Positions 2,920 through 13,951 of a stretch of DNA of 64,000 nt are shown piece after piece. The position numbers were made by a program, and so were the translations under genes. The notes under the pieces are model-generated. The model ran no database searches. It was not told the DNA's origin and worked only from the letters and a program-made list of their open reading frames with translations. The stretch lies in contig NZ_JAGGKE010000001.1 of NCBI RefSeq assembly GCF_017873555.1, positions 186,001 through 250,000 on the forward strand. Reading direction: 5' to 3'. The DNA comes from Halorubrum trapanicum. Its GTDB lineage: Archaea; Halobacteriota; Halobacteria; Halobacteriales; Haloferacaceae. Numbering within the stretch: position 1 is the first letter of the stretch; each line of letters starts with the position of its first letter.

Positions 2920-3534
2920 ATGTTCGTCGAACACCTCCCCGACGACCGGGGGCAGGCGCACACGTTGGAGGCGTTCACGGCAGCGCTGCTTCTGGTCGCC
3001 GGTCTCATCTTCGCGACGCAGGCGACCGCCGTGACGCCGCTTTCCGCCAGCACGTCGAACCAACACGTCGAGAACCAGGCGGCGATCGCCGCACAGGACG
3101 TGTTGACGACGGCGGGCGAAAGCGGAAACCTGACCGCAGCGCTGCTGTACTACGACGGAGAGGGGTTCGTCAACGCGAGCGAAGACGGCGCTTACGTCGG
3201 CGTTCCCCCGGGGCAGCACCCGCTTCACGACCCGCTTGCGGAGGCGTTCGGCGACCGCCAGATCGCGTTCGACATCGAGGTGTATTATCCCGAGAACGGT
3301 AGCGACGGGCTGGAAAGCGTCACGATGGTCAACATGGGGGAGCCGAGCGACAACGCGGCGACCGCGAGCACGCGCGTGACGCTGTACGGCGACGACCGGT
3401 TCGGCGATGACGGCGACAGGGACGCCCTCGCGGAGAACGGTACGGAGTCGTACTTCGCGCCCCCGGTCGACGGAGACCGGCCGGCGGTCCTGTACACGGT
3501 CGTGGAGGTGCGAATCACCGCATGGCAGATGTGA
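2920..3534 (+). CDS. Pilin-like membrane protein 2 of the secretion operon
   Basis: A 204-aa protein with a short N-terminus, the motif DRGQAHTLEAFTAALLLVAG and one hydrophobic helix (about residues 15-35), then a secreted domain. It fits a second haloarchaeal pilin-like family (I believe DUF7288), defined by the RGQAHTLEA block. It starts one base after the preceding stop and its end overlaps the next gene by 13 bp. Function unknown; probably a minor subunit of the same surface structure. Confidence 0.7.
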   Translation: MFVEHLPDDRGQAHTLEAFTAALLLVAGLIFATQATAVTPLSASTSNQHVENQAAIAAQDVLTTAGESGNLTAALLYYDGEGFVNASEDGAYVGVPPGQHPLHDPLAEAFGDRQIAFDIEVYYPENGSDGLESVTMVNMGEPSDNAATASTRVTLYGDDRFGDDGDRDALAENGTESYFAPPVDGDRPAVLYTVVEVRITAWQM

Positions 3535-4583
3535 CACTCCCCCGTATCCGTGGCCGCGGACGCGACGACGCCGATGCCGACCGCGAACGCGGTCGCCCGG
3601 GCCGCCACGGTGCGGACCGCGACGGAACCGACGGCGACGAGGACCGCGCGCAGATCATCCTCATAACCGGACTGACGCTCGCGGTCCTCTTCGTCGCGGT
3701 CGTCCTCCTGTTGAACACCGTCATCTACACCGAGAACCTCGCGACCCGCGGCACCGATGCGGGCGGGGCGGAGGCGATCGAGTTCCGCGATAGCGCCGTC
3801 GAGGACCTCGGCGGAATCCTGTACCGCGAACACCGGAACGGCTCCGAGAACGTGACCCGGACGTTCGCGGTGAGCGCGGAGACCTACGGCCGGACGATCG
3901 CGGACTTCCGGACGCGGGACAAGACGATAGCCGACGTGCGCGTGAACCTCTCCACCGCCGAGAGGGGCTACTTCATCGCGCAGAACGAGACCGACGGCGG
4001 GGTCCGGAACATGACGGCCCCCGACGACTCGACCGCGAACTGGACCCTGGTGAACGACGTCTCACGCGCCCGGAACTACCGGCTGACCGTGAACTCGACG
4101 TCCCTCTCGAACGACGAGGGCGGAGCGTTCGCGGTCGTGGCCGACGGCGCGGACGAGGACTGGTCGGTGACGCTGTCGAACAACTCGACTGACGCGATCA
4201 CCGTGCGGGTGAGAAACGCGACGATCGACGATTCGAGGACCTTCACCCACGGGCCAGACGGGAACGTCACTATCGACCTGACCGCCGGTACGGTCGGCGG
4301 CCAGCGGTTCCCCAAGCTCGTCTGGGCCGGGGGCGTCCAGAACGGAACCGACCCGAACGAGTCGTATGACATCACCTACGAGAACGGCGACGAGGCTCGG
4401 GGGACCTACCACCTCGTCGTCGACGACTGCGACGGCTGCGGCGCCGACCCGCCTCCGGCTCGGTTCTCGGGGCTATCCGTCGTCGAGGGGATCTACAGCG
4501 TCGACGTCGAGCTCAGCCACCGGACGCCGGAGCTGACCTACGGCGACGTGGTTCGGATCGCACCGGGTGAGCGCGATGCGTGA
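3522..4583 (+). CDS. Pilin-like membrane protein 3 of the secretion operon
   Basis: A 353-aa protein with an unusually long charged N-terminal extension (about 40 residues of Arg/Asp repeats), then EDRAQIILITGLTLAVLFVA and a single transmembrane helix. A large secreted domain follows, with many N-x-S/T sequons (for example NGSE, NNST, NATI) that could be N-glycosylated. Two Cys in CDGCG near the C-terminus may form a disulphide. The block DRAQIIL..NTVIYTENLATR is typical of a haloarchaeal pilin-like family (I believe DUF7261). Start ATG at 3522 lies inside the preceding gene. The exact subunit role is unknown. Confidence 0.68.
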   Translation: MADVTLPRIRGRGRDDADADRERGRPGRHGADRDGTDGDEDRAQIILITGLTLAVLFVAVVLLLNTVIYTENLATRGTDAGGAEAIEFRDSAVEDLGGILYREHRNGSENVTRTFAVSAETYGRTIADFRTRDKTIADVRVNLSTAERGYFIAQNETDGGVRNMTAPDDSTANWTLVNDVSRARNYRLTVNSTSLSNDEGGAFAVVADGADEDWSVTLSNNSTDAITVRVRNATIDDSRTFTHGPDGNVTIDLTAGTVGGQRFPKLVWAGGVQNGTDPNESYDITYENGDEARGTYHLVVDDCDGCGADPPPARFSGLSVVEGIYSVDVELSHRTPELTYGDVVRIAPGERDA

Positions 4584-5070
4584 GACGCCCGGGGGGACGG
4601 ACCGCGCCGTGTCGGTCACCGTCGGCTACGTCATGACGCTCGCAATCTCGACGCTTCTGCTCTCGGGGCTGTTCGTCGCCGGCGGCTCGTTCGTCGAGAC
4701 GCAGCGCGAGCGAGCGGCGCAGGGGGAACTCACCGTCGTCGGCGAGCGGATCGCGGCGGACATCGGCACCGTCGACCGGCTCGCGGCGAACGCGGCGTCG
4801 CGGGAGGATCTCACGGTCGACCGACCGGTGACCCTCCCCGAAAGGGTGTCCGGAACCGGGTATCGGGTACGCGTGACCGCCGACGACACTCGGGGGACGA
4901 TCGCGCTCGAAAGCGATCGGACCGACGCGACCGTCGAGGTACCGTTCCGCACGAGCGAGAGCGTCGCGGTCGAGAACACGACCGTCGACGGCGGCGACCT
5001 TCGGATCCGGTGGGACCCCCCTGACGAAGGCGCCGGGACGAACGGCGCCGTGGTGGTGAGCGAGCGATGA
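4567..5070 (+). CDS. Pilin-like membrane protein 4 of the secretion operon
   Basis: A 167-aa protein with DRAVSVTVGYVMTLAISTLL, a pilin-like N-terminal helix preceded by a short charged leader, then a beta-rich external domain. The family is found in the same order in other haloarchaeal Tad-like loci (I believe DUF7266). Two starts are possible: GTG at 4567 and ATG at 4576; both lie inside the end of the preceding gene. The stop overlaps the next start (ATGA). No catalytic motif. Confidence 0.68.
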   Translation: MSAMRETPGGTDRAVSVTVGYVMTLAISTLLLSGLFVAGGSFVETQRERAAQGELTVVGERIAADIGTVDRLAANAASREDLTVDRPVTLPERVSGTGYRVRVTADDTRGTIALESDRTDATVEVPFRTSESVAVENTTVDGGDLRIRWDPPDEGAGTNGAVVVSER

Positions 5071-5846
5071 GGGGTGCCGACCGCGGCGCCGGCTTCCGGA
5101 GCGCCGACCGCGGCGTCAGCGAGACCGTCGGGTTCGTGCTGGTGTTCGCGCTGATCGCGACGACGATCGCGGTCACGTTCACCGTCGGACTCGGCGGGTT
5201 GGAGGACGCCCAGCTCGCGGAGCGCGACAACAACGTCGAGCGCGCGTTCGACGTCCTCCACGACAACTTCAACGACCTCAGCCGGGACGGCGCGCCGAGC
5301 CGGGCCACCGAGCTCCGGCTCGGCGGGGGCGAGCTGGCGTTCGCGGACGACTCGACCTACAGGATATACAACGAGTCCAACGATTCGGTCGAAGGCTCGA
5401 CGACGGCGATCGTGTACCGCGGCGCGGGCGAGACGGAGATCCGCTACGAACACGGTGCGGTGATCCGGAGCGACGGAGGGGGCAGCGTCATGCTTCAGGA
5501 GCCGGACGTCCTGTTCGGCGAGACGACGCTGATCGGACTCGTCGCCCTCGGTCCGAGGGGGACCGAGAGCGTCGGCGGCGACCGGACGGTGCTCGTTCGG
5601 GGCGCCCACCCCGACGACGGCACCGTGACGGCGGTGAGCGAAAACGTCACGATCCGGATCCGAGGCCCGACCGCCGACGCTTGGTACCGGTACTTCGACG
5701 ACGAGAGAGACGGCGCCGGCGACGGGACGATCACCGACGTCACCCACACCCCGGCCGACGACGAGACGAGGGTGAACCTGAGCGTCGGCGGTGACGACCG
5801 GCTCGTGGTCCACCGGACGCTGGTCGACGTCCGATTCACCGACTGA
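5067..5846 (+). CDS. Pilin-like membrane protein 5 (last gene of the secretion operon)
   Basis: A 259-aa protein with DRGVSETVGFVLVFALIATT, a single N-terminal helix, then an ERDNNVERAFDVLHDNFNDL segment and a beta-rich domain. Its body (LGGGELAF, TTAIVYRGAGETEIRYEHGA, VIRSDGG, DVLFGETTLIGLVAL) can be aligned by eye with residues about 70-160 of the 631-aa protein at 5885-7780, so the two are paralogues (I believe DUF7289). ATG overlaps the preceding TGA. It ends the operon; the next gene is convergent, 38 bp away. Confidence 0.68.
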   Translation: MRGADRGAGFRSADRGVSETVGFVLVFALIATTIAVTFTVGLGGLEDAQLAERDNNVERAFDVLHDNFNDLSRDGAPSRATELRLGGGELAFADDSTYRIYNESNDSVEGSTTAIVYRGAGETEIRYEHGAVIRSDGGGSVMLQEPDVLFGETTLIGLVALGPRGTESVGGDRTVLVRGAHPDDGTVTAVSENVTIRIRGPTADAWYRYFDDERDGAGDGTITDVTHTPADDETRVNLSVGGDDRLVVHRTLVDVRFTD

Positions 5847-11362: not shown

Positions 11363-12796
11363 TCACTCGGCCGGTGCGGTCTCGTCGCGGGTGCCGTCGC
11401 TGCTCGCGTCGCCCGTGTCGCCCGCGTTGTCGCCGCCGACCGCTCGGCGCGGGGCGAACCGGCCGAGGGCGACGCGCGCCAGCGTGCCGGGACCGTGCCG
11501 ACGGATTACCAGGAGCGCGTTCGCCGCGAAGACGGCGACGCCGAGCGTCACCAGCGAGGTCCCGGCGAGCGCAATCTCGGGCGATCCGCCCGCGAGCGTC
11601 GCGCCCGACGCGCCGGCGGCGAGGTCGGCGCCGACGAGCAGCGCCGTTCCGAGGAACAGAAGCGCCCCGTCGGCGGCCGCGAGCCGGTCGTCGTAGAGGT
11701 CGTCGACCATCGGGACCGCCTCGAAGCCGACCCGGTCGCTGTACCGGTGGACCCAGACGATGAAGGGAACGATGTGGTACAGCGTCCCGAGGATGACGAA
11801 CCCGATCACGCCGAGGAGCAGCAGCGGTGCGCTGCCGGGACCGCCGAGGACGTGGTCGGGGGCGGTCGGCGACCGGAGCCACGCGGGCGCGGCGGTCGCG
11901 ACCCACGCCGGGAGCGCGAGCGCGACGACCGCGTACCGCGTGTGCATCGGCGTGCGCTCGACGCGCATCTCGGAGAGCCGGCGGGCGAGAACCACCGCGA
12001 ACGCCAGCGCGGCGAGCAGGATCAGGACCGCACCGCCGCGCGCGAGCGCCGCGGACTCGACCAGTCTCCCGGCCGCGAGCGCGACGGCGCCGACGGGGTG
12101 GCCGACCTCCTCGACCGCGCGGAGCCGGTGGTCGACCCCGCGAAGCTCCGTCTGCGTGAACATCGTTCCGAGCTGGTACAGCGCGCCGTAGACGGTGGTC
12201 AGCACCGCGCCGAAGACGGCGAGGGTGACGTGGGCGCCGCGAACGCCCGTGTGCGAGACGCCGAGACCCGCGAGGAACCCGGAGCCGAGGTCCGCGGCGA
12301 GCAGGACGCCGAGTCCGGTCAAGACGACGAAGAAGGCGAGCGCGACGGCGAAGTGTCGCTCGGTCACGTCGAACTCCTCGACCGTCGCGAGCGTTCGCCC
12401 GACGTTGTAGACAAACGTCCAGAAGCCGGCGAGCATCAGGGCGCCGAACCCCGCCAGCCACGAGAGCCGGCCCAGCGCGAGCGCGGCCGCGAACCCGACC
12501 AGCCCGCCGCCGACCAGCGCGAGCTGGACGCTCGCGAGCCGCCGCGAGTGAAGCGTCGTCCCCGACCACACCGGGACGAACTGCGTCATCGCGCCCATGA
12601 TCGTCACGCACACCCACCCGACCAGGAACAGGTGGACGTGGACGAGACCGCCGAGTCCCGGCACCCCATCGACGACCAGTCCGATCCCGACGAGTAAGGC
12701 GGCGCCGAGGAGGGTCAGTCCGACGAGGAAATGCCGAAGCGGGACCGTCATCGCCGGTCCCCGCGACGCGTCGATACCGCCCGGAACTGCTCCCAT
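11363..12796 (-). CDS. Heme-copper oxidase subunit I-like multi-pass membrane protein
   Basis: About 477 aa with 11-12 hydrophobic segments. Three blocks resemble the His-containing helices of cytochrome oxidase/NO reductase subunit I relatives: VHVHLFLVGWVCVTIMGAM (H53, H55), GAHVTLAVFGAVLTTVYGAL, and LGTLYHIVPFIVWVHRYSD. It lacks the full catalytic set I would expect of a true oxidase, so it may be a heme- or NO-handling relative. Start ATG at 12796 (alternative ATG 12751); a longer frame to 13045 runs antisense through the cupin gene and is unlikely. A perfect CGAAGATGTTCG site lies 38 nt upstream. A C-terminal Asp/Gly-rich tail is cytoplasmic. Confidence 0.7.
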   Translation of the reverse strand: MGAVPGGIDASRGPAMTVPLRHFLVGLTLLGAALLVGIGLVVDGVPGLGGLVHVHLFLVGWVCVTIMGAMTQFVPVWSGTTLHSRRLASVQLALVGGGLVGFAAALALGRLSWLAGFGALMLAGFWTFVYNVGRTLATVEEFDVTERHFAVALAFFVVLTGLGVLLAADLGSGFLAGLGVSHTGVRGAHVTLAVFGAVLTTVYGALYQLGTMFTQTELRGVDHRLRAVEEVGHPVGAVALAAGRLVESAALARGGAVLILLAALAFAVVLARRLSEMRVERTPMHTRYAVVALALPAWVATAAPAWLRSPTAPDHVLGGPGSAPLLLLGVIGFVILGTLYHIVPFIVWVHRYSDRVGFEAVPMVDDLYDDRLAAADGALLFLGTALLVGADLAAGASGATLAGGSPEIALAGTSLVTLGVAVFAANALLVIRRHGPGTLARVALGRFAPRRAVGGDNAGDTGDASSDGTRDETAPAE

Positions 12797-12834: not shown

Positions 12835-12846
12835 CGAAGATGTTCG
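12835..12846 (-). promoter_or_regulatory. CGAA-N4-TTCG operator upstream of the heme-copper-like gene
   Basis: CGAAGATGTTCG: inverted half-sites CGAA and TTCG around GATG. Exactly 38 bases separate it from the ATG at 12796. The form resembles the semi-palindrome I recall for the haloarchaeal NarO/DmsR-type anaerobic regulators (CGAA-N4-TTCG). Confidence 0.5.
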
Positions 12847-12921
12847 CGGGATCGTCGGCACGCGGGAGTCGCCGTCGCGGTCCCGCGCCCCCGGACCCCC
12901 GCCGTCCGTCCCTTACCGACG

Positions 12922-12933
12922 GGAAGATGTTCG
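12922..12933 (+). promoter_or_regulatory. CGAA-N4-TTCG-like operator upstream of the cupin gene
   Basis: GGAAGATGTTCG: one mismatch from the site at 12835-12846, same GATG core, and again exactly 38 bases from its start codon (ATG 12972). Confidence 0.45.
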
Positions 12934-12971
12934 GCACAACGGGCGTGACGATGCGGCGTGAACCGTCGGCC

Positions 12972-13346
12972 ATGACGGCAACCAGCGTCGACGCCGAACG
13001 CGAGTACGACGACCGTCGCTTCACCGCCCGCGAGGTCTCCCGCACGGACCGGTCGAAGACGGTCTGCGGCTACTTCGAGCCGGACCAGTTCATCCCCGTC
13101 CACGCGCCCGACAGCGACGTGACGATCGTCGTCCAGTCCGGGGAGGGTGTCGTCCGCGACGGCGACGAGGACCGCGCGGTCTCGCCCGGCTCGGTGGTCA
13201 CGATCCCAGCGGGCCAAGACCGGGGCGTGCGTGCCGACGGGACCCGGCTGGAGGCGGTCCTCGTCACCGCGCCGCCCCCGACCGACGCGGAACACGAGCC
13301 GGTCCGACGGGGACTGAAGACGGGGACGTTCGACCCCGACGAGTGA
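12972..13346 (+). CDS. Small cupin-domain protein
   Basis: A 124-aa single-domain cupin: FEPDQFIPVHAPDSDVTIVV (first cupin box), SGEGVVRDGDEDRAVSPGS and VVTIPAGQDRGVRADG (second box). Only some of the usual metal-binding His are present (H80 region), so metal binding is uncertain. Start ATG at 12972 (alternative ATG 12951) is set by the operator spacing. Divergent from the heme-copper-like gene, with the two operators back to back in the 175-bp gap. It may have a stress or redox-linked role. Confidence 0.75.
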   Translation: MTATSVDAEREYDDRRFTAREVSRTDRSKTVCGYFEPDQFIPVHAPDSDVTIVVQSGEGVVRDGDEDRAVSPGSVVTIPAGQDRGVRADGTRLEAVLVTAPPPTDAEHEPVRRGLKTGTFDPDE

Positions 13347-13410
13347 GATTCGGCGCGACCTCGCCGACGGAGATTCGGCGCGACCTCGCCGACGGAGATT
13401 CGGCGCGACC
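13345..13410 (+). repeat. 25-bp tandem repeat, 2.6 copies
   Basis: Unit starts GAGATTCGGCGCGACC; two exact 25-bp copies at 13345-13369 and 13370-13394, then 16 bases of a third. It begins on the last two bases of the cupin stop codon and ends just before the third operator site. Confidence 0.85.
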
Positions 13411-13417
13411 GCGCGGG

Positions 13418-13429
13418 CGAAGATGTTCG
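13418..13429 (+). promoter_or_regulatory. CGAA-N4-TTCG operator upstream of the DtxR-like regulator
   Basis: CGAAGATGTTCG, identical to the site at 12835-12846, 42 bases before the ATG at 13472. Confidence 0.5.
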
Positions 13430-13471
13430 CCCTCACCGATACCCCGGTCGGCGCCCCTGTTTCCCCCACGA

Positions 13472-13951
13472 ATGGCCGCAACGACCTCACCGGCCCCGCG
13501 CTGCCGGTGCCGCCGTCCGCACGCCCGCGTCGACCGCGACCGCGCCAGATACCTCGCCGCGATCGACCGCCTCGCGGCCGACCCCGACGATCGGGTTCGA
13601 ACGGGCGCCGTCAGCGACCGTCTCGGAGTTAGTCCAGCGAGCGTGACCGAGATGTTCGGGCGCCTCGACGCCGCGGGCCTCGTCGATCACGAGAAGCGGG
13701 CCGGAGCGCGGCTCACCGAGCGCGGCGAGCGGATCGCCGCGGAACTGGCGTGGCGGCGCTGCGTCGTTCGGACGTTCTTCAGCGCGGAGCTCGACTTCGG
13801 ACTCCCCGAGGGGACCGGGTTCCGAATCGGGTTCGCGCTCCCCCGCGAGGGGGTCGAGCGCCTGTCCGCGATCACCGACGCGTCCCCGGGCGACCCCTGT
13901 CGGTCGAGCGGCGACGCGGCGGCGGGCTGTCCGTGGGCGAGCGGCGACTGA
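13472..13951 (+). CDS. DtxR-like winged-helix regulator with an altered metal site
   Basis: A 159-aa protein whose N-terminal half matches DtxR/MntR regulators: RARYLAAIDRL, then helix-turn-helix TGAVSDRLGVSPASVTEMFG and wing AGLVDHEKRAGARLTERGE. The segment that normally holds the metal ligands differs: the usual HRLLE is CVVRT, and the usual C-x-x-E-H block reads FALPREG. Extra Cys pairs occur at the N-terminus (CRC, residues 13-15) and C-terminus (DPC..GCPW), so it may bind another ligand. Start ATG at 13472 is preferred because the longer frame would run through the tandem repeat and operator. Confidence 0.72.
   Translation: MAATTSPAPRCRCRRPHARVDRDRARYLAAIDRLAADPDDRVRTGAVSDRLGVSPASVTEMFGRLDAAGLVDHEKRAGARLTERGERIAAELAWRRCVVRTFFSAELDFGLPEGTGFRIGFALPREGVERLSAITDASPGDPCRSSGDAAAGCPWASGD

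Follow-up and report, generated by a model that had tools for sequence, protein, structure and literature searches.

A conserved CGAA-N4-TTCG site at fixed spacing before three genes of a putative denitrification-linked module in Halorubrum trapanicum

Three neighbouring genes of H. trapanicum, encoding a heme-copper-like membrane protein, a cupin and a DtxR-like regulator, are each preceded by a short inverted repeat of the form CGAA-N4-TTCG. They lie in the window, by which we mean the whole 64,000-nt stretch of DNA that was analysed. The genes and sites are the following.

11363..12796, minus strand: membrane protein with a predicted heme-copper-oxidase fold, 477 aa, 12 long predicted helices
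12835-12846, minus strand: site 1, CGAAGATGTTCG, reading CGAACATCTTCG in the direction of the gene
12922-12933, plus strand: site 2, GGAAGATGTTCG, one mismatch, at the first base
12972..13346, plus strand: small cupin (Cupin_2), 124 aa; Pfam PF07883 at 31.9 bits, over the cut-off
13418-13429, plus strand: site 3, CGAAGATGTTCG inside GGGCGAAGATGTTCGCCC (13415-13432)
13472..13951, plus strand: DtxR/MntR-like winged-helix protein, 159 aa; Pfam PF01325 at 44.5 bits

The gap between site 1 and the ATG of the heme-copper-like gene, whose first base on the minus strand is 12796, is 38 nt. Site 2 likewise stands 38 nt before the ATG of the cupin gene at 12972; this gene has an in-frame alternative ATG at 12951, and comparison with orthologues favours 12972. 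Site 3 precedes the ATG of the DtxR-like gene (13472) by 42 nt and widens to 18 bp with perfect inverted arms (GGGCGAA-GATG-TTCGCCC). The initial annotation had described identical or near-identical CGAA-GATG-TTCG 12-mers 38, 38 and 42 bases before the three starts, and both the positions and the distances are as it claimed. A tandem repeat of ~25 bp, GAGATTCGGCGCGACCTCGCCGACG, occupies 13345-13410 with almost three repeat units, downstream of the cupin stop and ahead of site 3.

Conservation and chance occurrence of the site

Relatives and named haloarchaeal genomes yielded 104 distinct orthologues of the heme-copper-like gene. A CGAA-N4-TTCG site with at most one arm mismatch ends 37-41 nt before the ATG in 95 of the 104, and the gap is exactly 38 nt in 75 of the 104 examined. 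Among the nine exceptions, two (L018 and L055) carry a two-mismatch version at the same place, in one (L095) an exact site precedes a GTG by 38 nt, and several others have upstream sequence that looks coding by inspection. When the promoters were reduced to a non-redundant set (<70% identical), the GAA and TTCG positions were invariant in 55 of 55, the first C of CGAA was kept in 40 of 55 and the four core bases varied. Downstream of the site, an A at about -27 and a TA at -11/-10 were also conserved in these 55 promoters. The site was found 38-43 nt before the ATG in nearly all of the closer DtxR-like orthologues, and 37-39 nt before the ATG in about half of the cupin orthologues, including cupins of other genera. 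Its position in orthologous promoters is thus conserved in three unrelated gene families, and the combination of fixed arms, fixed spacing and a drifting core is the mark of a protein-binding site. These comparisons suggest that CGAA-N4-TTCG is almost certainly a real conserved control element. They also uphold the earlier view of the three sites as a small regulon.

We also considered whether the sites could be random occurrences of a common 8-base pattern, as the whole genome contains 194 CGAAN4TTCG sites. Because the bare pattern is fairly common, rarity by itself proves nothing. The initial annotation had held that a 12-mer frequent at random would speak against its reading; the bare CGAAN4TTCG is indeed not rare, yet the spacing, clustering and conservation of the sites are non-random. 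The genome-wide statements made here are based on pattern counts and on chosen stretches of the genome. Within the window, eight CGAAN4TTCG sites were observed compared to 2.1 +/- 1.25 in shuffles, and GAAGATGTTC has 17 copies in the 3.08-Mb genome, three of them inside the 600 bp that contain these sites. When the three upstream regions, 100 nt each, were dinucleotide-shuffled, 1.07% of the shuffled regions contained a site with at most one mismatch at a gap of 36-43 nt. All three sites together arose in 0 of 3000 shuffle rounds, corresponding to a joint chance of ~1.2e-6. The non-random features of the sites are therefore their position, their clustering and their conservation. With a joint probability of ~1e-6 from the window alone, and with the spacing kept in 95/104 heme-copper-like orthologues, chance is left with a negligible probability; the conserved spacing among orthologues already refutes it.

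Relation to denitrification

Denitrification promoters of Haloferax mediterranei contain a semi-palindromic motif, CGAAYATDKTYG (Miralles-Robledillo et al. 2023, PMC10062603). Motifs of this type are present in the nir, nor and nos promoters of that species, and mutation of the motif reduces the activity of its nos and nor promoters (PMC10062603), which makes it an activating site. A similar motif in the nar/nir/nor/nos promoters of other haloarchaea is credited to Hattori 2016, and the regulator acting on the haloarchaeal motif is described as not yet settled (PMC10062603). According to the H. mediterranei regulon list, the sites of that species are clustered within denitrification islands (PMC11218638). 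The sites described here are like CGAAYATDKTYG in being CGAA-N4-TTCG-type semi-palindromes before denitrification and accessory genes, and in this genome too they are grouped in a denitrification island. In contrast, the window core is CATC/GATG, one base off the consensus. None of the three window sites matches the exact CGAAYATDKTYG consensus by inspection, each departing by at least one base; orthologue sites with CATG or TATG cores do match it. The spacing is also different, with 38-42 nt in the window compared to 66-79 nt in the main promoters of H. mediterranei (PMC10062603), and the window sites stand before accessory genes at a satellite locus. The element belongs to a known class; its targets here are new and its geometry is unusually strict.

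Around heme-copper-like orthologues, the annotated genes include nirK, halocyanin, DUF2249 and HTH_10 genes, as well as genes for a NOR-like oxidase and a metal-dependent regulator. nirK lies at most 8 kb from the orthologue in 28 of 66 neighbourhoods, and any marker of the denitrification regulon appears in 53 of 66, with 13 showing none; these are raw counts with no random-locus baseline. In H. trapanicum, an island on contig 13 (58000-80000; L149, L150) holds nirK, a truncated haemoglobin, HTH_10, peroxiredoxin and DUF2249, together with paralogues of the heme-copper-like, DtxR-like, cupin and SRPBCC genes and many CGAACATGTTCG sites. As the island carries paralogues of the module, what lies in the window is a satellite copy of this accessory set.

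A scan of stretches of this genome for sites with at most one mismatch at gaps of 35-45 nt returned many plainly intragenic chance matches, and we therefore relied mostly on exact sites and on paralogues of known targets. At 37-43 nt, sites stand upstream of DUF2249 genes, of the paralogues of the heme-copper-like and DtxR-like genes, and of genes for a CGCGG RiPP, a peroxiredoxin and a radical SAM protein. The initial annotation had suggested a search before nar, nir, nor and dms genes, and the outcome was mixed. A site was found 97 nt upstream of nosZ (contig 1), where several DUF2249 genes have sites too, and another 190 nt upstream of nor (contig 7), in addition to those before accessory genes. 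In contrast, no site was detected within 150 nt of nirK or upstream of dmsA in this genome. The motif likeness and the gene context together make a low-oxygen, denitrification or NO module, as originally proposed, the best reading, and the context supports the low-oxygen/denitrification reading well. The tie between the heme-copper-like gene and denitrification also gains strength, as its orthologues often sit in denitrification clusters. The suggested DMSO link, with dmsA lacking a site, is unsupported.

Two other genes near such loci also carry the site. A small protein ending in FMFCC (L153:2255-2725) is encoded divergently from the NOR gene (2966-5254) and has a site 38 nt upstream, and this shared site is the one 190 nt from the NOR start. 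In several genomes (L133, L135), the heme-copper-like gene has a CGCGG rSAM-modified RiPP gene nearby, and the homologue of this RiPP gene in H. trapanicum (L149:2034-2375) has a site 38 nt upstream.

Candidate regulators and promoter arrangement

We consider it probable, at roughly 0.75, that the sites are bound by one activator of a low-oxygen/denitrification regulon, with an HTH_10 protein the likeliest. The foremost candidate would be a bacterio-opsin-activator-like HTH_10 protein of the type found at contig 1:379749 and contig 13:60527. This type, here called type A (contig 1:379749, with a paralogue on contig 13), has no Cys cluster. It occurs in 22 of 24 same-genus genomes that have the heme-copper-like gene compared to 4 of 10 that do not (Fisher p 0.003, kinship ignored), and it is often encoded within a few kb of that gene. 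The locus thereby singles out one HTH_10 type by co-occurrence, and on this comparative evidence type A is the likeliest candidate binder of the sites.

In the arrangement that we propose, the three sites would be bound by a single transcription activator, presumably dimeric. Counted from the start codon, each site extends over about -50 to -39, with a shift of four bases upstream at the DtxR-like gene. In H. volcanii, 72% of protein transcripts are leaderless (PMC4983044). As most haloarchaeal mRNAs begin at the start codon, the site would be placed directly upstream of the BRE/TATA region. The conserved A (about -27) and TA (-11/-10) fit an archaeal promoter from which transcription begins at the ATG. 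The TATA region of the three promoters is degenerate, and their transcription would therefore require the bound activator; a position just upstream of BRE/TATA suits an activator, and the published mutations point the same way. Induction would yield the heme-copper-fold membrane protein, the cupin and the Cys-rich DtxR-like regulator, which may provide accessory or NO-handling functions and secondary control. The sites, their spacing and conservation, the gene context and the co-occurrence are observed; from them we infer activation rather than repression, as well as the identity of the binder, the inducing signal, the leaderless start and the functions of the proteins. The rigid promoter geometry, conserved across many haloarchaeal genera, makes the locus suitable for testing candidate regulators.

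Other explanations were weighed against this activator. The CGAA arm could be a basal element, as part of the haloarchaeal BRE, for which a consensus of CGAAA upstream of genes has been reported (PMC4983044). However, the TTCG arm is as conserved as CGAA while the core varies, a BRE would not stand as far upstream as -50 when transcripts are leaderless, and the sites are concentrated in denitrification islands. This makes a basal element very improbable. Binding by the DtxR-like protein itself, with the sites as an autoregulated local operator for the three genes, would fit the location of its gene inside the module and the site in its own promoter. Self-regulating repressors often carry an operator in their own promoter, and palindromic operators are usual for DtxR/MntR proteins. 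However, close Halorubrum species keep the heme-copper-like site at loci in which no close DtxR-like orthologue was found, and none was found in the sampled genomes G016, G027 and G028. The site is thus kept where the orthologue was not found, which argues against the DtxR-like protein as sole binder; in addition, the motif occurs genome-wide, and the published motif is activating (PMC10062603). We regard autoregulation of this kind as unlikely, and the comparisons indicate that the DtxR-like protein is a target of the site rather than its sole binder.

Binding by a Cys-type NarO/DmsR-like HTH_10 regulator, encoded in this genome at contig 7:45422 or, for the DmsR-like protein, on contig 12, is a more serious alternative that we nevertheless find doubtful. 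NarO has been described as regulating denitrification in H. volcanii, and a C-x2-C-x7-C motif is one of its features. This motif was present in 0 of the 17 HTH_10 proteins; by inspection, the nearest arrangement is C-x-C-x7-C in two of them. The motif reported by Hattori 2016, as cited by PMC10062603, favours a NarO-type binder. Against it, the Cys-type protein showed no association with the heme-copper-like gene in same-genus genomes (p 0.67, kinship ignored), H. mediterranei has the motif reportedly without a NarO homologue (PMC10062603), and dmsA of this genome has no site. The system therefore resembles NarO/DmsR regulation in the similar motif of nar/nir/nor/nos promoters and in a likely binder from the HTH_10 family, and differs from it in that the co-occurring HTH_10 type lacks the Cys cluster and dmsA lacks a site. 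Of the likeness to a NarO/DmsR motif that was first proposed, the resemblance to the haloarchaeal denitrification motif stands, whereas the expected regulator type does not co-occur. The type A HTH_10 protein remains our preferred activator.

The heme-copper-like and DtxR-like proteins

Pfam and NCBIfam alone gave no name for the heme-copper-like protein. The COX1 match of the window protein was below the Pfam cut-off, and 59 of 67 family members matched at E <= 0.1. No solved structure was matched by the family profile by sequence. For the structure work we used an alignment that left out plasmid-derived rows. The AF2 model had a pLDDT of 89, and Foldseek comparison to cbb3 oxidase and NOR gave TM-scores of about 0.6. 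The predicted structure is thus a 12-helix fold of the heme-copper oxidase type. Invariant His residues of the family are H55 (TM2), H189 (TM6), H341 (TM10) and H434, with H53 at 82%. The His residues in TM2, TM6 and TM10 are shared with the heme-copper oxidase superfamily. In contrast to these oxidases, the family has no conserved TM7 His pair and a single conserved TM10 His. The full heme and CuB set (TM2, TM6, two in TM7, two in TM10) was not found in the family, so that the usual catalytic centre is not conserved. HFX_2180 of H. mediterranei is a COX-type protein of 440 aa that is encoded near nirK and was found in denitrification-enzyme preparations (PMC7754194). Likened by description, it shares a similar size, the COX-type domain and nirK proximity with the window protein, and is likely its orthologue. 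A widely conserved "hypothetical" protein with a predicted heme-copper fold is now tied to denitrification.

The DtxR-like protein keeps the winged-helix fold and the N-terminal DNA-binding sequence family of the MntR/DtxR/IdeR repressors. Unlike them, it has Cys97 in place of MntR H77, has lost the other metal ligands and has extra C-terminal cysteines. C97, which aligns with MntR H77, is invariant in the family (the window protein and orthologues L156-L175), and the family also has a C-terminal Cys cluster; residues at the remaining MntR ligand positions vary, and the canonical DtxR/MntR metal ligands are not retained. The locus thus exposes a Cys-rich DtxR-like family without the usual metal ligands, whose members may bind a cluster or sense NO. 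Tentatively, and with less confidence than we place in the activator, the DtxR-like protein might be a new Cys-liganded (e.g. iron-sulfur) NO/oxygen sensor, with the heme-copper-fold protein as its partner or in NO handling, which together would form a second layer of control over the regulon.
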